Assembly: GCF_016862435.1 (NCBI RefSeq) | Contig: NZ_BOMY01000002.1 | Coordinates: forward strand, 496,001-560,000 | Reading direction: 5' to 3' | Length of the DNA stretch: 64,000 nt | Source: Paractinoplanes tereljensis | GTDB taxonomy: Bacteria > Actinomycetota > Actinomycetes > Mycobacteriales > Micromonosporaceae | Shown: piece by piece, positions 29,934 to 37,039 of the stretch | Layout: every line of letters starts with the position of its first letter | Position numbering within the stretch: the stretch's first letter is position 1 | Notes under the pieces: model-generated | What the model was told of the DNA's origin: nothing | Databases searched by the model: none | The model's input: the letters and a program-made list of their open reading frames with translations, nothing else | Made by a program: the position numbers and the translations under genes

Positions 29934-32900
29934 TTACTTGATGGTGATCTTCTTGGTGGCGGAGTAGCCGCCCCAGATCCCGTTGGGCGTGAAGCCCTGC
30001 ACGAAGGCCCGAACCGTGTGCGAAGAGCCGGAGGCCACCTTGGCCGTAGCCTTCCACTGGTTGTTGCTGCCGGTCGTGCCGGTCCAGGTGTTGACCCACT
30101 TGCCACCGACCCAGCGCTGCACGATGACAACCTGGCCGACGCCGCGCGGGGTGCCCTGGACAGCGAAGCTGACCCAGCCCTTACTGGGCGAGCTGGCCAC
30201 GAAGACCGGAGCCTGGGTGACGTTGACCCGCTTCTCCATCGACTCGTCGCCGTCCGAGGAAACCTTGAAGCGGTAACCCTGGCTCAGCGTGCGAACGAAC
30301 TTGTAGGTGCCGTCCGCCCCCGCCTTGACGGTGGCAAGCTTCCACAGCTCAACGTTCTTGGTCGAGATGGGAGCACCCCAGAGCTCCACCATGGCACCCG
30401 GAGCAGCCTTGCCCCAGATCGGCGTGTTGATGCCACCGGAAACGGTGCCCGCCACGTTCAGCGCCAGGCTGCCGTCGGTCTTGTCGTCCGACTTGATCGT
30501 GACGGTCGCGTCACCGTTGACTACCGACGCGCCGAGCGGGCCCGGGTTGCCGAGGTGGACGGCGAAGGTCTCGTCCGGCTCCACCGAGTGGTCATCGATC
30601 AGCGGGACTTCGATCCACGACTTCATGGTGCCCGGCGGCACCTCGATCGTGCCCTTGCTCAGCTTGTAGTCCTTACCAGCCTTGGCCGTGCCGTCCTCCG
30701 TGTAGTACGGAATCGTAACGGTCTGGACGGTCGAGGTCGCTTCACCGGTGAAGGTCAGGTCGACCGGAATCTTGGCCGTTTTGTCCTTCTCGTTGACCGT
30801 CACATCACCGATCGAGGCCGCCGGCGGAAGGTCCAGCGGGTCATCGGTGATCTTGAAGGTTCCGGTGGCCGGCGTGAAGCCGGTCAGCGCACCGGTGGTC
30901 TCGTTCGCCGTGACGGTGAACGCCTCGGTCGGCTCGTCGATCGTGTCCTGAAGAGCCGAGAACGAGTAGGTGTACGCCCCGTTGAGGTCTGTCAGCTTTC
31001 CGGTGCTGCCACGCGGCACACTGACCGCGGCGGTGGCGAACCCGGTGGGCGGCGTGAAGTCCGTACCATTCGTGGCCGCCGGGTTGCCCGCTCCCACGGT
31101 GAAACCGAGGGTGTACGGGTACTCCGAGACTCCGACGATCGAACCGGTGACCGGGAGCGACTGCCCCTCGGCCACGGAGCCGCTGTTGAAGGTCAGCGTC
31201 GGCATGGCGTCGTCGTTGCCGATCGTGATGCGCGAGGTGTGCAGCACGTCCGGGGTGTTCTGGGTGTCGACGTCGGTGCTGGCCGTAGCCAGAGTCAAGC
31301 TGAACACCTGGTCGCGCTCGTAGACCAGGTCGCCGTTGATCGGGACGTTCACCCAGCCGGCCGTGTCGCCGGCCTTGATCGTGACGGTCGCGTCGGCCGG
31401 AATGTCGTAGTCGTTGGCCCCCGCCTGGGTGCCGGACTCAACGGCGCTTCCGTCGGCGAAGCTCAAGCTGAACACGGTGTCCGTCTTGGACGGCCCGCTC
31501 AGAGCGATCGGCACCTTCGCGTAAGTGGTTCCGCTGTTGCCCTCGGTCACCGAGACGTCCGACGTGGTGAAGGTCGGAATCGAGTCCGACTCGCCAGACT
31601 CGTCGATCGTGACGGTCTGGTCGCTCGGGTTGTGGATGGTGCCGTTCGGGCTGGCCAGAGTGATCTTGAAGTTCTCGTTGCCTTCCAGGATCTTGTCACC
31701 GTAGATGGTGACCGGAATGTCCTGGGTCCAGCTCGTCGTGCCCGCCGGAATGGTGAAGCTTCCGTCGGTGCCCTTGTAGTCGATCCCGGACTTGGCCGTT
31801 CCATCCTTGAACTTGTAGGTAATCTGGATGGCTGTCGGGAACGGACCGGTGGGCAGCGATGCGTGGATCTGCCGCACCATTTCGCCCGAGTCGAGCTCCT
31901 TGAAGGTGAGCGGCGTCAGCGTGACGGTCGGGCCCGAGGTCTGCCCGTCGGCGTCGTTGATGATTCCGGTACCGGTGGCCGGCGTGCCCAGCGTGGCTTC
32001 GTCCGGGGTGCCCAGAGTCGCCCGCACGTTTTCCGGGCCCTCGAAGTCGCCGTCAGTAAGCGAAACGATGGTGGCCACGCCAGTCTTGGTGTACTTGGGA
32101 AGGTTTACCGAACCGGCCGACACCTGCGTGTAGTCGGAGTCGGCGAGAGTGGCGCCATTGGAATCCGCGAGCTTGGTCCCGTCCGCGGAGGTGTAGTGCG
32201 CAGTTACCTGCTTCTCCGACGGCGCGGACAGCGTAAGCGGGAACTTGAGAGTCCCACCCTCGGTCACGGCCGGAGCGTCTCCGATGCTGATCGACGGAGG
32301 CGAGTCGTCATCGGTGATGGCGACCTCGACCGGGCTGCCGGTGGCCGCCTGGGCCCCCAGCGGTGTACCCGCCTGAACCCAGAAGTACTGGGTGTCCGGC
32401 TCGTCGAGAGCGTCGTCGAACAGCTCGACGTCAAGGTAGCCGGTGTAGCTGTAAGCCGGAATGACGATCGTGGCATTGGCCGGCAACGCCGTGAAGTCCC
32501 GGAACGCACCGCCGCTGGAGATCGCCTGGTCGTCGGCGGCCTGGTTGGTGTCCATCGCGGTGCTCAGCGGGATGGTGACATCGTGTGACATCGCGGTGTC
32601 GATCGTCGCGGTGATCCGAGCCGTCCGCTGAGTGGTTCCACCGGCCGACATAATCGCGGTTTCCAGCAGCGCGCTGGAGGGGCCTTCGATGGTCAGGTTG
32701 GGGTATGAACCCACCGACCAGATGGTGCCCGTGGCGTTCACCGTATTGCTGACCGTGTCAGTCACGACGAACTGGAAGTCCTCGTCGACGCCGTCGCCGT
32801 CGTTCTCCGTGGCGAAGCTCACCGTGGTGGTGTTGTTGCCGCCCGCGAGGGTGCCAGGGAAGGTGATCGAGGTGCGGCTGGGGTCACTGTCGTAGTCATC

Positions 32901-33230
32901 CACACCGTTCACCGGCGTGGTGTTGCCCACCGCATGACCAGGACCGACGCTGAGATCCGCGGCCGAGAAGGTGAAGTCCCCGGGACCCGCACCGGTGTAC
33001 GTCACCGTGAAGGTGACCTTCCCGCCTTCCCAGTTGGCGGCGTCCGCGACGGAGATGTCGGCAACGCTGGACGTGTTGACAGCGTAGGCGGGCGACGGCG
33101 CGAGCATCGCCGGGACAAAGGCAACCGCAGAGGCTGTGGCCGCCGCCAGAACCGTCCGGATCCGGTGTCGTCCCCAGAACGTGAACGGCACACGCTCGGG
33201 CGGCGCCGTTTGGATTGGTCGATGACGCAT
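29934..33230 (-). CDS. Large secreted Calx-beta repeat protein
   Basis: ATG 33230, preceded by AGGAAG, gives 1098 residues. The twin-arginine-free signal peptide ends near SPAYAVNTSS. About six or seven Calx-beta-type repeats follow. Each opens with a pattern such as ISIGDAPAVTEGG or TTSDVSVTEGN and contains acidic clusters (FEGPENVRA, LEGNENFK, DEPTEAF) that bind Ca2+ in this fold. From about residue 925 there is an Ig-like C-terminal region ending in GYSATKKITIK. No LPxTG anchor is seen. Such proteins act in adhesion or matrix formation. Its leader resembles a cyclic di-GMP riboswitch. Confidence 0.88.
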   Translation of the reverse strand: MRHRPIQTAPPERVPFTFWGRHRIRTVLAAATASAVAFVPAMLAPSPAYAVNTSSVADISVADAANWEGGKVTFTVTYTGAGPGDFTFSAADLSVGPGHAVGNTTPVNGVDDYDSDPSRTSITFPGTLAGGNNTTTVSFATENDGDGVDEDFQFVVTDTVSNTVNATGTIWSVGSYPNLTIEGPSSALLETAIMSAGGTTQRTARITATIDTAMSHDVTIPLSTAMDTNQAADDQAISSGGAFRDFTALPANATIVIPAYSYTGYLDVELFDDALDEPDTQYFWVQAGTPLGAQAATGSPVEVAITDDDSPPSISIGDAPAVTEGGTLKFPLTLSAPSEKQVTAHYTSADGTKLADSNGATLADSDYTQVSAGSVNLPKYTKTGVATIVSLTDGDFEGPENVRATLGTPDEATLGTPATGTGIINDADGQTSGPTVTLTPLTFKELDSGEMVRQIHASLPTGPFPTAIQITYKFKDGTAKSGIDYKGTDGSFTIPAGTTSWTQDIPVTIYGDKILEGNENFKITLASPNGTIHNPSDQTVTIDESGESDSIPTFTTSDVSVTEGNSGTTYAKVPIALSGPSKTDTVFSLSFADGSAVESGTQAGANDYDIPADATVTIKAGDTAGWVNVPINGDLVYERDQVFSLTLATASTDVDTQNTPDVLHTSRITIGNDDAMPTLTFNSGSVAEGQSLPVTGSIVGVSEYPYTLGFTVGAGNPAATNGTDFTPPTGFATAAVSVPRGSTGKLTDLNGAYTYSFSALQDTIDEPTEAFTVTANETTGALTGFTPATGTFKITDDPLDLPPAASIGDVTVNEKDKTAKIPVDLTFTGEATSTVQTVTIPYYTEDGTAKAGKDYKLSKGTIEVPPGTMKSWIEVPLIDDHSVEPDETFAVHLGNPGPLGASVVNGDATVTIKSDDKTDGSLALNVAGTVSGGINTPIWGKAAPGAMVELWGAPISTKNVELWKLATVKAGADGTYKFVRTLSQGYRFKVSSDGDESMEKRVNVTQAPVFVASSPSKGWVSFAVQGTPRGVGQVVIVQRWVGGKWVNTWTGTTGSNNQWKATAKVASGSSHTVRAFVQGFTPNGIWGGYSATKKITIK

Positions 33231-33243
33231 TCTCTTCCTGTCT

Positions 33244-33326
33244 CCTTCGGCGGCTGGGCAGCCTCTCCAGCGGGGAGGCCCCTGGCTTCGCGTCCTCGTC
33301 AGCCGACGAGGGTTGCCTGTCGGTAC
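33244..33326 (-). promoter_or_regulatory. Candidate class I cyclic di-GMP (GEMM-I) riboswitch
   Basis: Read on the minus strand, AGGCAAC is followed by a perfect 7-bp stem (CCTCGTC/GACGAGG, loop GGCT), then ACGCGAAGCCA. This matches the GEMM-I core of GGCAAA, P1b stem, GGGACGCAAAGCC, with the outer GGC/GCC pairing kept. A second hairpin (GGCTGCCCAGCC region, 33268-33250) sits where the second arm is expected. It ends just before the ribosome site of the Calx-beta gene, so translational control is plausible. Departures: AAC for AAA, and no GAAA tetraloop. Confidence 0.55.
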
Positions 33327-33622
33327 CGCACCTTGGGGGCGGTCGGGGCACCGGTAAAACCGGCCCTCAGCAGCGCAAACACGCGATCTAAGATCCTCGT
33401 GAGGCGGCGCCATCCGTAATCTAACCGGCATAACGGACTCTTTTTGGCGGAACGCCTTTTTTCTGGCGAAGAACCTTCACACCACCACCGCGGCGCCCAG
33501 CGCCGGACAGGCAGGAAGAATGGTCTGACCTGCGAAAACAGGCCACACATGATCAGTATGGCGGCCCGTCCGGCCGCGTATACGGCAATTGAGCTATCCA
33601 GATCAACCAATTTCCGGGCATA
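33327..33622. other. Non-coding stretch upstream of the Calx-beta gene, probable promoter region
   Basis: No convincing gene. It presumably holds the Calx-beta promoter. On the plus strand a short GGCG-GAA-CGCC stem with T-runs on both sides (33441-33462) could be a weak terminator or, on the minus strand, an A-rich element upstream of the promoter. The base composition is more AT-rich than the flanks. Confidence 0.4.
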
Positions 33623-33666: not shown

Positions 33667-33873
33667 CTAGCGAGCGATGAGCTTCAGGGCCAGCATCGGG
33701 CATCGGTCGACGGCCTGTTTGGCTGCTCCCTCCAGCGGCGGCGGCACGGCCGGTGAGCGCTGCCCGTCGCGGGCGACCGGGAAGCCCCAGTCGTCCTCGA
33801 CCAGCATCTCCTCCAGCAGTTCGGTGCAGACGCCGCGGCCGTCGCAGGCCGTCCAGTCGACGTGCAGTTTCAT
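33667..33873 (-). CDS. Small [3Fe-4S]-type ferredoxin, last gene of the flavin redox operon
   Basis: Encodes 68 residues from ATG 33873 (GGAGG seven bases upstream). The cysteine pattern is C10-x5-C16 followed by a distant RCP (CDGRGVC ... DRCPML). Three Cys in this arrangement bind a [3Fe-4S] cluster, as in actinobacterial P450-type ferredoxins. The start overlaps the NuoF-like stop by 4 bp, so translation is coupled. It is the likely soluble carrier that exchanges electrons with the NuoF-like protein or the membrane haem subunit. Confidence 0.88.
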   Translation of the reverse strand: MKLHVDWTACDGRGVCTELLEEMLVEDDWGFPVARDGQRSPAVPPPLEGAAKQAVDRCPMLALKLIAR

Positions 33874-35093
33874 CGGTATCCCTCCGTCGCCAGGCAGCGC
33901 CCGTTCAGGTGCGCCGCGACATCCGCCTGGAACATCCGCATCGCGCTGAGCACCAGCCGGGCCGTGCCGTCCGGGTGGTGGCAGGCACCCCGGCCGGAGA
34001 CCAGCCGGGCCAGTCGTTCCGCCTCGGCCGCCAGCCCGGCCCGGGGGCGCCGGGCGGCCAGGTCGGCCAGCGTGGCCGCCATCCGGGGCAGGCCGTTGAT
34101 GCACGGGCCGCACTGCCCGGCCACCTGGTCGGCGAGATAGCCGGCGATCCGGGCGGTCTCCCCCAGCCCGCAGGCCCCGGCCGGCAGCGCCACGAGCACG
34201 CCCGCGCCGGGCGATGCCCCGTACGGTTCGAGGGCCTGCCGGCTCACCGGCAGCGCCGGATCGGCCGGCACCCAGCCGCCGTGATATCCGCCGATCAGCA
34301 CCGCCTGCAGGCGCATCGTGGCCCCGCCGACCGCCGCGATCAGCTCGCCCAGCGGCACGCCGTAGCCGGCCTCGACCACGCCGGGCCGCCGGACCGCGCC
34401 GCTGATGGTGGCCAGGAAGGTGCCGGGTTCGTCGGCGGTGCCGGCCGACAGGAACCAGCCGGCGCCGTACCGGGCGATCAACGCCAGGTGGGCCAGGGTC
34501 TCCACGTTCTGCACCAGGGTCGGCGAACCGCCCACCCCGGCCTGGATGACCCGGATCCGCTTGTCGGCGGGCACCGCGCCGCGCCCGTTGAGCGCGGACA
34601 CCACCGCCGACTCCTCGCCGGAGACGAACGCGTCGGGCGCCGCCTGCAGGGTCACCGACATCCGGTCGAGGCCGGCCACGCGACGCGCCTCCAGCAGGGC
34701 GCGCAGCGGCGCCAACGCCGCCTTCGGCGCGTAGAGATGGGCGGCCCGGGCCTTGGTCGCGGCCGCGACCAGCTGCAGGCCATCAAGAACCAAATTCGGC
34801 TGGTACGCGAGGAGAGCGCGATCCTTTCCACTGGCCGGCTCACCCTCCGCCCCGTTGGCCACCACCACGGCCGACCCGTCGCCGGCCTCGGCGACCGCGC
34901 TGAGCTTGCGCCACACCGGGAAGCCGGCGCCGCCCCGCCCGGTGAGGCCGGAGTCGCGGGCCATCCCGATGATCTGGCTGCCGTCCAGGAGCGGCAGCCG
35001 CCCGTGCCGGGCCAGGTGGGCGTCGAGCCCGAGTTCGCCGTCGAGCAGTCGCCGTTCCACCCGGCCGACCGCCGCTTCCGCCACGCTGGTCAT
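33870..35093 (-). CDS. NuoF-like flavin/iron-sulfur protein
   Basis: ATG 35093 gives 407 residues. It has the NuoF FMN site (GLTGRGGAGFPVWRKL), the partner loop NGAEGEPASGKDR, a VSGEESAVV segment, an SLBB-like region, and a C-terminal cluster site. The NuoF cluster motif SCGxCxPC reads AGQCGPC here, so the first Cys is absent; the later GACHHPDGT adds a Cys and a possible His ligand. It probably moves electrons between NAD(P)H or ferredoxin and the haem membrane subunit, outside any complex I context. ATGA overlaps link it to both neighbours. Confidence 0.86.
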   Translation of the reverse strand: MTSVAEAAVGRVERRLLDGELGLDAHLARHGRLPLLDGSQIIGMARDSGLTGRGGAGFPVWRKLSAVAEAGDGSAVVVANGAEGEPASGKDRALLAYQPNLVLDGLQLVAAATKARAAHLYAPKAALAPLRALLEARRVAGLDRMSVTLQAAPDAFVSGEESAVVSALNGRGAVPADKRIRVIQAGVGGSPTLVQNVETLAHLALIARYGAGWFLSAGTADEPGTFLATISGAVRRPGVVEAGYGVPLGELIAAVGGATMRLQAVLIGGYHGGWVPADPALPVSRQALEPYGASPGAGVLVALPAGACGLGETARIAGYLADQVAGQCGPCINGLPRMAATLADLAARRPRAGLAAEAERLARLVSGRGACHHPDGTARLVLSAMRMFQADVAAHLNGRCLATEGYR

Positions 35094-35680
35094 CGGACCT
35101 CCTCCAACTCTTTCCGCAGTCGCGGCGCGACCTGGCGTTCGGCTCGGGCCGGGAACCTGCTGAAACCGGTCGAAAGCCGCCAGCCGATGGCCGCCACGAC
35201 CGCGACGGCACAGGCGATCGAGATGGTCCAGAGCCACCAGGTGCCGTTGTCACTGCCGGTGCCGAGCCCGTGCATGAGAGCTACCGGCCAGCACAGGTAC
35301 GCGAGCCAGTGCACAACCCGCCAGGTGCGCGCACCCAGCCGGTGGCGCAGCAGGCTGGTGACCACGATCGCGACGAGCAGGTCGAAGGCCAGCGTGCCGA
35401 AGCCCTGCCAGACCGGGCGGTAGTTGCCGACGAACGGCAGCACCACGTCGAACAGGCGCAGTTGCGCGTACGGGTCGAAGAGCAGGCTGATCACGTGGCC
35501 GGCAACGAACACCACGGACAGCAGGGCCGCGTTGCGGTGCAGCAGGCTGACCGCGAACCGGGGCAGGCCGAACGCCGGCTTGCCGGAGCGGGAGCCGATG
35601 CCGAGCGCCACCACGACGGTGAGCAGCACCAGCGAGATGACCCCGCTGCCGCGGGCGAAGTACCAGAGCGCGTCGCTCAT
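35090..35680 (-). CDS. Ferric-reductase-like transmembrane haem protein
   Basis: Encodes 196 residues from ATG 35680. There are five to six helices; paired His residues in SLLHRNAALL/VAGHVISL and in VVHWLAYL/ALMHGLGT are placed to bind b-type haems across the membrane, as in the FRD/MsrQ/YedZ superfamily. No cytoplasmic FAD/NADPH domain is fused; the adjacent NuoF-like and ferredoxin proteins probably supply electrons. It overlaps apbE and nuoF-like genes by 4 bp each. Predicted role: carrying electrons outward to a flavinylated extracytoplasmic acceptor. Confidence 0.85.
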   Translation of the reverse strand: MSDALWYFARGSGVISLVLLTVVVALGIGSRSGKPAFGLPRFAVSLLHRNAALLSVVFVAGHVISLLFDPYAQLRLFDVVLPFVGNYRPVWQGFGTLAFDLLVAIVVTSLLRHRLGARTWRVVHWLAYLCWPVALMHGLGTGSDNGTWWLWTISIACAVAVVAAIGWRLSTGFSRFPARAERQVAPRLRKELEEVR

Positions 35681-36591
35681 GAGGGCCAACCGCCCAGCCG
35701 CAGCACGTCCAACGAGGGCGTGACCAGCCGGCTCGGCGCCTTGCCGAGCAGGTCGGGGGCGGCGTGGCCGCGGACGATCGCGGCCGTGCTGAGCGTGTTG
35801 GCCCGCAGGCAGCTGTAGGCCGCCACCGACACCGTGCGCCACACCGGCACCGCGGGTCGGCCGGTGGCCGGGTCGACGATGTGGTGCAGCTGTTCGCCGG
35901 GCCGGCCCCAGGTGCGGCCGGCCGTGCTCGAGGTGGCCAGGGCCGCCCCGGCCGGCATCCGGATCGTGTCGGCCGGGTCGCCGGGCCGGTCCTGCACCAG
36001 GACCTCCCAGCCGCCGGCCGGCGCCATCCCGGCGGTGGCGATGTCGCCGCCGAGCGCCACCAGCACGCCCACGCCGAGCTTCGCGGCGACCTCGGCGGCG
36101 GCCCGGTCGGCCGCCACCGCCTTCGCGGTGGCACCCAGGTCGAGCAGCACCCCGTCGGGGACGGTCAGTTCCCGCACCGACAGCTTCACGGCCCGCCAGT
36201 CCGGGGTGGCGAAGACCCGCACCGCGGGCGCCACCTCCCGGCCGGTCAGCAGCGCGAAGTCCCGGTCGTAGCCGAGTCCGCACAGCGCGGCGCCGACGGT
36301 CGGGTCGACCGCACCGCCGGTCTGCCGGGCGGCGTCGAGAGCGGCCGCGACCAGGTGGGCGAGCAGTGGGCTGACGGTGACCGAGGTGCCGCCGGAGCGG
36401 CAGGCCCAGCGCAGTTCCGAGTCGTCCCGGAAGCGGCTGCAGGCCAGGTCCACGGCGGCGAGTTCCGCCTTGACCAGCTCGGCCGCCTCGGCGACCCGGG
36501 CCGGGTCGGTGACCACGATCCGGGCGACCGTGCCCCAGACGGACCACTGCGCGGTGTCCGCGCCGATCGGCAGTGTCTCCACGAGCGGCAT
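35677..36591 (-). CDS. apbE: FAD:protein FMN transferase
   Basis: ATG 36591 gives 304 residues. ApbE features in order: the opening MGT-like WSVWGTVARIVV, CSRFRDDSEL (S.F...SEL), the ALCGLGYDRDF region, LLDLGATAKAVAADRAA (the GaiaKGyavD position), VALGGDIA (nGGD) and the C-terminal HHIVDPATGRPA. ApbE attaches FMN from FAD to the Thr of a [S/T]GAT motif in exported redox proteins. No signal peptide is obvious, so it may act in the cytosol or be retained at the membrane. One base separates it from the upstream Ser-rich gene, which ends in SGAT. Confidence 0.92.
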   Translation of the reverse strand: MPLVETLPIGADTAQWSVWGTVARIVVTDPARVAEAAELVKAELAAVDLACSRFRDDSELRWACRSGGTSVTVSPLLAHLVAAALDAARQTGGAVDPTVGAALCGLGYDRDFALLTGREVAPAVRVFATPDWRAVKLSVRELTVPDGVLLDLGATAKAVAADRAAAEVAAKLGVGVLVALGGDIATAGMAPAGGWEVLVQDRPGDPADTIRMPAGAALATSSTAGRTWGRPGEQLHHIVDPATGRPAVPVWRTVSVAAYSCLRANTLSTAAIVRGHAAPDLLGKAPSRLVTPSLDVLRLGGWPS

Positions 36592-36592
36592 G

Positions 36593-36862
36593 TCACGACC
36601 CTCCAGAGGTGGCGCCACTGCTTCCGCTGCTGCTGCTGTCGCTGCTGCCGGAGAGCGTGGGCGATTCGTCGGTGGTAGTACTGCTGCTGCTACTGCTCGA
36701 CGATGAGCTGCTGGAGTCGGTCGACGTCGTGGTAGAGGTCGTAGTTGATGAGTCGTCGGCGGCGTACGCGGCTACCCCGATACCGACGGTTCCCGCCAGG
36801 CTGGCCGCGATCAAGGCGCCGGTGAGCAACGACGTTCGCCGCAGTCCGGTTTCCCGCTTCAT
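36593..36862 (-). CDS. Ser-rich exported peptide with C-terminal SGAT, candidate ApbE substrate
   Basis: ATG 36862 (GGGGGAG upstream) gives 89 residues. A signal peptide runs to about residue 34 (SLAGTVGIGVAAYAADD). The mature part is almost only Ser, Thr, Gly and Asp, with a 12-Ser run, and ends GSSGATSGGS. The SGAT tetrapeptide is the ApbE target motif, and the next gene is apbE. No FMN_bind domain is present, unlike the usual actinobacterial substrate. It could be a minimal flavin carrier, or a degenerate remnant of a longer FMN-binding protein. It heads the five-gene redox operon. Confidence 0.75.
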   Translation of the reverse strand: MKRETGLRRTSLLTGALIAASLAGTVGIGVAAYAADDSSTTTSTTTSTDSSSSSSSSSSSSTTTDESPTLSGSSDSSSSGSSGATSGGS

Positions 36863-37039
36863 CTGCGTGCTCCCCCTTCGTTGATGACTCAACAAAGAGT
36901 GCGCGACGGGTCTCGCCCTGGCCTGTGTGCATCCTTCGCACTTGCTGTGAGACGAAGGTTAAGTCGAACTACGGTATCGGCCCGGTCCCCTACTCCCTAG
37001 GTTGGACATCGAAGCCAAGAACGCACCTGGGGGAACGAA

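Follow-up and report, generated by a model that had tools for sequence, protein, structure and literature searches.

The 64,000-nt stretch of the Paractinoplanes tereljensis genome analysed here (the window, from contig C2; all coordinates are window positions) carries an apbE operon that opens with a gene for an 89-residue Ser/Thr-rich peptide. We consider it likely that this peptide is an ApbE substrate and a domainless, disordered flavin carrier, bearing flavin mononucleotide (FMN) on its C-terminal Ser, in an MsrQ-like/NuoF-like electron-transfer system. As such, it is probably a very simple electron carrier across the actinobacterial membrane.

Occurrence and C-terminal conservation of the peptide

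Within the genus, 29 of 67 genomes had an ApbE match at E <= 1e-20, giving 30 loci, and in all 30 a peptide of similar make-up precedes apbE with the frame kept. When genome contigs were searched with an ApbE alignment, at least 525 relatives came up, the best 80 of which (48-94% identity) were kept; these span the Actinoplanes group, Rhodococcus, Nocardia, Pseudonocardia, Kineosporia, Nocardioides, Arthrobacter, and Microbacteriaceae. The peptide lies upstream of apbE in 77 of these 80 loci, and all 77 tails read [ST]x[GA]S. Ser-rich peptides beside apbE, which a preliminary description of the window had proposed to look for in other actinobacteria, occur across Actinomycetota, and all but the two ends of the peptides varies among loci. 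Conservation of the frame and of both ends led us to reject a spurious open reading frame (ORF). The peptide is annotated as a hypothetical protein in locus L119, and the incomplete gene table of L118 lists no gene there.

The family comprises 107 peptides, of which 88 are distinct (30 from the Actinoplanes group and 58 from outside it), and every one of the 88 ends in [S/T]-x-[G/A]-S-COOH. Counting the last residue as position 0, Ser occupies position 0 and Ser or Thr position -3 in 88/88, position -1 is Gly (n = 87) or Ala (n = 1), position -5 is Ala or Gly in 78/88, and position -6 is mostly Gln (n = 33), His (n = 27), or Asp (n = 9). The resulting consensus is [mostly Q/H/D]-A-x-[S/T]-x-[G/A]-S, of which the window version is G-A-T-S-G-G-S. 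When the 40 C-terminal residues of each of the 58 peptides from outside the Actinoplanes group were shuffled 2000 times, a mean of 2 and at most 9 had the tail pattern versus 58 observed, a figure that serves as a guide rather than a probability as the sequences are related.

The first choice of ORFs favoured Ser-ending frames and was repeated on the 80 contig loci by hydrophobic segment and soft tail alone. This choice, blind to the last letters, gave exactly one ORF in 76 of the 80 loci, all matching the earlier choice, and two in L080, with the earlier choice among them.

Operon organization

The five genes lie on the minus strand and read as one unit: peptide, apbE, haem protein, NuoF-like subunit, and ferredoxin. 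One base (36592) separates the peptide gene from apbE, and the apbE/haem protein, haem protein/NuoF-like, and NuoF-like/ferredoxin junctions are 4-bp overlaps. ORF reading and Pfam matches to each gene downstream of the peptide confirm this arrangement, which had been described before as an exported Ser/Thr-rich peptide one base from apbE, followed by haem-membrane, NuoF-like, and ferredoxin genes. The features are as follows.

36870..36879, minus strand: GAAGGGGGAG, probable ribosome-binding site of the peptide gene (sequence reading)
36593..36862, minus strand: candidate flavin-carrier peptide, 89 aa (ORF with ATG start and TGA stop, ending in GSSGATSGGS)
36761..36862, minus strand: N-terminal signal or membrane-anchor segment, residues 1-34 (hydrophobic stretch after basic residues)
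36617..36760, minus strand: Ser/Thr-rich low-complexity linker, residues 35-82 (length and sequence vary among relatives)
36608..36619, minus strand: SGAT, residues 82-85 (seen here and in 8/88 distinct peptides)
36596..36607, minus strand: C-terminal SGGS, residues 86-89, with Ser89 as the predicted FMN acceptor (tail conservation)
36599..36604, minus strand: GGAGGG, probable Shine-Dalgarno sequence of apbE within the last codons of the peptide (sequence reading)
35677..36591, minus strand: ApbE-family flavin transferase, 304 aa, signal peptide not seen (Pfam ApbE, 2.3e-47)
35797..35799, minus strand: Asn265, at the position of the ApbE Mg-binding Asp (alignment)
35090..35680, minus strand: ferric-reductase-like (MsrQ-like) haem membrane protein (PF01794 Ferric_reduct, 5.1e-11)
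33870..35093, minus strand: NuoF-like flavin/iron-sulfur subunit (PF01512 Complex1_51K, 1.4e-30; PF10589 NADH_4Fe-4S, 1.1e-15)
33667..33873, minus strand: small ferredoxin with three cluster Cys (PF13459 Fer4_15, 1.5e-12)

The apbE, haem protein, NuoF-like, and ferredoxin genes co-occur in 71 of the 80 loci. Among the nine incomplete loci, contig ends cut L045, L086, L093, L100, and L106, while L069, L105, L108, and L109 are without some operon genes despite ample flanking sequence. The three loci without a peptide are L095, where the contig begins at that point, L069, with apbE alone, and L105, with apbE and ferredoxin only. Three other loci (L074, L088, and L101) hold two tail-tagged peptides each, perhaps representing two carriers per system.

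Neighbouring genes were not decisive as a functional clue. Two-component genes adjoin 21-22 of the 80 loci and VIT-family genes 5, and neither occurs in the Actinoplanes-group loci. In the window, the operon is followed on the same strand by a 1165-codon ORF with Calx-beta repeats (29934-33431).

Make-up of the peptide

The window peptide opens with basic residues followed by a hydrophobic segment, continues as a Ser/Thr-rich stretch, and closes with SSGATSGGS. It matches no Pfam family at E 0.01, and FMN_bind (PF04205) is absent among the four families matched by any of 42 family members. A known family was rejected, as the matches to Pfam and NCBIfam are weak (best E 6e-5 among the 42 members); that of the window peptide scores 20.6 bits against a cut-off of 80.

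Fixed Gly (76/85), Arg (66/88), and Thr (79/88) positions in the N-terminal segment seem to go beyond what a throw-away signal would need. As A-x-A cleavage patterns are nevertheless found in 72/88 peptides, the segment is predicted to be either an anchor or a cleaved signal. Tat export as a general route was rejected, since a Tat-like pattern occurs in just 14/88 peptides, as was a lipoprotein (lipobox-like pattern in 1/88). The pooled linkers consist of 33% Ser, 17% Thr, and 14% Gly.

The predicted flavinylation site

ApbE sites have been described as D-x-x-[S/T]-G-A-[S/T] with the acceptor last (PMC12052999). If the family tail is aligned to this register with the acceptor terminal, position -3 corresponds to Ser or Thr and position -1 to a small residue. 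At the C-terminus, S/T is present at -3 in 88/88 and S at 0 in 88/88, and the motif letter is seen at -2 in 45/88 (G), at -1 in 1/88 (A, with G in 87), and at -6 in 9/88 (D). Tails of peptides partnered with paralogous ApbEs come nearer to the canonical letters: SGAS (L147), TGAS (L157), DARSGGS (L151), TSAS (L142), SSGS (L141), and TAGS (L150). At all six loci, genes related to those for the haem and NuoF-like proteins are present as well. Two distant loci have the motif slightly inward of the end, as SGGT-GD (L163) and TGGS-APPP (L173). The register, the paralogue tails, and the invariance of the terminal [S/T]-x-[G/A]-S lead us to take Ser89 rather than Thr85 as the likely acceptor. In the laboratory, a terminal 7-residue tag suffices for ApbE and works best at the end of a protein (PMC12052999).

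The preliminary description had put FMN on Thr85 of the internal SGAT, which would leave the conserved tail to serve another purpose. SGAT is the textbook acceptor sequence (PMC12052999), and its Thr, at position -4, is Thr in 29 of the 30 distinct Actinoplanes-group peptides. Outside this group, however, -4 is Thr in 25/58 and another residue in 33/58 (Arg 14, Gln 8, Ser 4, Lys 3, and others), making 54/88 overall; the residue six before Thr85 is Ser and not Asp, and the full SGAT is found in 5 of the 30 distinct Actinoplanes-group peptides and 8 of the 88. Modification of Thr85 is thus an unlikely reading. SGAT by itself also appears to be weak evidence, because shuffling the 55 post-signal residues of the window peptide yields SGAT in 2.1% and [ST]GA[ST] in 9.5% of cases (the tail [ST]x[GA]S in 4.9%). 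The rejected candidate of a chance SGAT (P 0.02 by shuffling) is moot since SGAT is not conserved.

Lack of SGAT conservation among orthologues had been named as grounds for abandoning the original proposal, and taken literally this is what was found. The peptide, which has no FMN_bind domain, is still the most likely substrate of its ApbE; what falls is SGAT as the conserved site, the invariant element being the terminal motif.

The ApbE enzyme and its partner types

The window enzyme matches the ApbE profile (PF02424), and its structural model (mean pLDDT 89.1) matches solved ApbEs along its length, in a comparison that covered the 293 chains ranked highest by Foldseek. By this model, the whole fold is the FMN-transferase fold, which alone shows no activity. 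The general-base His237 and Ser221, which correspond to His257 and Ser241 of Vibrio cholerae ApbE and whose roles as general base and triad Ser have been described (PMC12052999), are kept in 109/109 readable orthologues, as is the Mg-site Thr. The Mg-binding Asp (Asp284 in Treponema pallidum, Asp285 in V. cholerae; PMC5655446) is replaced by Asn in 109/109, which is Asn265 in the window.

This replacement would also suit an ApbE clade that lost transfer together with the Mg-site Asp and became an FAD-binding or FAD-splitting helper giving free FMN, with the peptide as its anchor; the relative Ftp of T. pallidum has been described as an FAD pyrophosphatase (PMC4767422). We find such a role improbable, as the general-base His, the Ser, and the Mg-site Thr are all kept, the fold is that of the transferases throughout, and the hydroxyl residues at fixed places in the tail look substrate-like.

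Judged from the sequences, ApbE type follows partner type, with Asn or Glu enzymes beside peptides and Asp enzymes beside FMN_bind proteins. Asp is present in 22/22 ApbEs encoded beside FMN_bind genes (L120-L139 and two from the window's own genome) and in the L145 enzyme, which stands beside a weak FMN_bind match. Five further peptide-partnered paralogues (L141, L142, L147, L150, and L151) have Asn, and Glu is found in L157 (TGAS peptide), L171 (TGGS), and L173 (TGGS-APPP), each with Lys for the neighbouring Mg-site Thr. None of the peptide-partnered ApbEs examined carries Asp. The ApbEs without an established partner have Asp (L143, L144, L153, L158, and L159), Thr (L152), Ser (L154), Glu (L140), or Tyr (L155 and L156).

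In an 81-row tree, the Asn type groups in one clade (support 100/99), which also takes in L152 and L154-L156 as nested members and is separate from the Asp type partnered with FMN_bind. The Glu type (L140, L157, L171, and L173) is placed beside the Asn clade with weak support (84/89) and long branches. Three of these four Glu-type loci have an upstream peptide ending in or near TG[GA]S. L155 and L156, ApbE relatives from the genomes of the Rhodococcus loci L061 and L062, have Tyr at the Mg site and have lost the catalytic His and Ser; they are probably not transferases.

More tentatively, and with less confidence than for the carrier itself, these patterns may reflect a second flavinylation code in Actinomycetota. 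In such a code, an Asn-site ApbE clade would put FMN on the C-terminal Ser of a disordered, export-tethered peptide, a flavin on a string without a protein pocket, and the terminal carboxylate may stand in for the Mg-binding Asp that this clade has lost, the substrate thereby aiding its own modification. Both ideas, that the carboxylate finds space because of the Asn and that it replaces the Asp, are speculative.

Observations that weigh against a terminal-Ser carrier

Several observations count against the carrier reading. The canonical site letters are mostly replaced in the tail, with Asp at -6 in 9/88, Gly at -2 in 45/88, and Ala at -1 in 1/88. With Asn in place of the Mg-binding Asp, the predicted transfer activity is not certain.

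The position of the tail is a further point. In 73/77 loci, apbE could start between -8 and +11 nt relative to the peptide stop, and in the window the last Gly codons, GGA GGG, are likely the apbE Shine-Dalgarno sequence, with apbE beginning seven bases on. The tail might accordingly be kept for nucleotide reasons, namely the Shine-Dalgarno sequence and the overlapping start, with the peptide acting as a small subunit of the haem protein instead of an ApbE substrate. This also seems improbable. The tail is kept in the four loci without a near start (L076, L107, L114, and L117), and second peptides away from the apbE start end alike (QGQTSGS, SHTTSGGS, and QGHSSGS in L074, L088, and L101). Other operon genes rarely end so (apbE 0/79, haem protein 0/75, NuoF-like 2/71, ferredoxin 0/71). 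In addition, the tail Ser codons are TCN in 60/60 at -3 and 76/77 at 0, compared with 885 TCN to 575 AGY elsewhere in the peptides, which a Shine-Dalgarno sequence does not explain.

Textbook ApbE is periplasmic. In the window system, the peptide looks exported and the ApbE shows no signal segment. Across 108 ApbE sequences, the hydrophobicity of the best 15 of the first 50 residues reaches at most 1.83, a weak test as the peptides themselves span 1.4 upward (median 2.06), and the window model has strands in this region. If both placements hold, the flavin would be attached before export of the peptide; cytosolic ApbEs are known (PMC12052999).

A wider draw covered 396 genomes of the phylum, with few candidates scored in each; at least 17 of them, including that of the window, had a match at 1e-50, and the other 16 were examined. 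Fourteen of these 16 distant loci have an Asn-type ApbE. The tail fits in just 7 (L162, L164-L167, L170, and L171), while L163 and L173 have the motif a few residues inside, and L160 and L161 are without a peptide. Five distant peptides, forming one tree subclade, have a Cys-framed loop as their last part, which may be a disulfide version of the carrier tail; the ends seen among L168, L169, L172, L174, and L175 are CYTTPSGSTVCS, CTSAPSGQTTCD, CYTSPSGNVTCY, CYTNASGTFQGCW, and CYSTPSGNVRCY. At L160 and L161, as at L105, an Asn-type apbE is retained together with a ferredoxin gene, and no gene for the peptide, the haem protein, or the NuoF-like protein was found alongside. As only 7/16 distant tails fit, the terminal-Ser rule is valid for the main radiation and not for all loci.

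Electron-transfer partners and proposed mechanism

His48, His62, and His124 of the haem protein are invariant and His137 is 97% conserved (77 sequences), in keeping with two bis-His haem sites of which these residues would be the ligands; the model of this protein (mean pLDDT 68.6) was used solely for viewing helices. In the NuoF-like protein, Cys328, Cys331, and Cys371 are invariant (72 sequences), and in the ferredoxin Cys11, Cys17, and Cys59 of the translated stretch. With GQCGPC, the NuoF-like protein seems to be one Cys short of the usual NuoF cluster pattern; conserved in its stead are Cys308, 328, 331, 371, and 400.

In the carrier reading, ApbE would attach FMN from FAD to the hydroxyl of Ser89, and the N-terminal helix would then bring the chain to the membrane so that the tail lies on the outer side, where the chain may stay tethered through the helix or be set free by cleavage. 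By way of its flexible linker, the peptide could bring its flavin to the outer haem of the MsrQ-like protein. Electrons may pass from NAD(P)H to the FMN and iron-sulfur clusters of the NuoF-like protein, on to the ferredoxin, through the two haems to the peptide FMN, and from there to an acceptor outside. The path from NAD(P)H to the peptide FMN is a natural one because of the established roles of the haem, NuoF-like, and ferredoxin families.

Other possible substrates in the genomes

Two further apbE loci of the window's own genome, one on contig C6 and one on C39, are each accompanied by a gene for an exported FMN_bind protein that combines a Ser-rich linker with the motif VSGATYTS or VSGATVTS; the window apbE is without such a partner. 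Substrates were also searched in 50 of the genomes of the 80 loci, many of them drafts. FMN_bind was not found in 19 of these 50, and 10 have a single ApbE match, at the operon's place, with FMN_bind likewise not found. NQR2_RnfD_RnfE (NqrB/RnfD), DUF2271, and DUF3570 were searched and not found in these 10 one-ApbE genomes; Flavodoxin_4 and FMN_red were not searched.

In the genome set of Meheust et al. (PMC8238504), 4% had an apbE but no known substrate, and the peptide family, if it is flavinylated, could fill part of this gap. It would then be the first ApbE substrate class without a folded domain, as far as the literature covered goes, and would show the minimal protein that a flavin electron carrier needs. 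The change from Asp to Asn in the enzyme would be paired with a change of substrate type, and the tails would offer natural C-terminal flavin tags for protein labelling.

Comparison with known flavinylation systems

The system belongs with the MsrQ-like flavinylation clusters that have a NuoF-like subunit, 31 of which were described by Meheust et al. (2021, PMC8238504). It shares apbE, PF01794, and PF10589 with them, here in one cluster, and the system is broadly kept in Actinobacteria (PMC8238504). FMN_bind is typical of MsrQ-like systems, though not universal; in contrast, the operon has no FMN_bind gene (matches in this genome lie only on contigs C6 and C39) and a domainless peptide instead. 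An iron link has been drawn for MsrQ-like systems (PMC8238504), which the VIT-family genes near some loci recall.

The peptide resembles the FMN_bind (PF04205) proteins of C6 and C39 in having an export segment, a Ser-rich linker, and a motif near the C-terminus, and in being encoded beside apbE. The FMN_bind proteins differ in that a folded domain (77 Pfam profile positions) holds the motif and in that their ApbEs have Asp, not Asn.

DUF2271, DUF3570, Flavodoxin_4, and FMN_red proteins are ApbE substrates (PMC8238504; PMC11334425) that are likewise without FMN_bind and were found via gene context. In FMN_red substrates, the site is on an unstructured C-terminal extension. All four are built around a folded or membrane domain, whereas the peptide has no such domain beyond the membrane and its motif is terminal. 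In the ApbE literature searched, supplements and subscription papers excluded, no disordered or C-terminal-Ser substrate was found, and within this coverage the peptide matches no known substrate class.

The nearest likeness at the site itself is to the Flavin-tag, an engineered terminal 7-residue ApbE site in which a short terminal peptide suffices as well (PMC12052999, PMC10722498). The Flavin-tag is man-made and reads DxxSGA[ST], whereas the peptide tail is natural, with its letters changed along with the Mg site of its ApbE.

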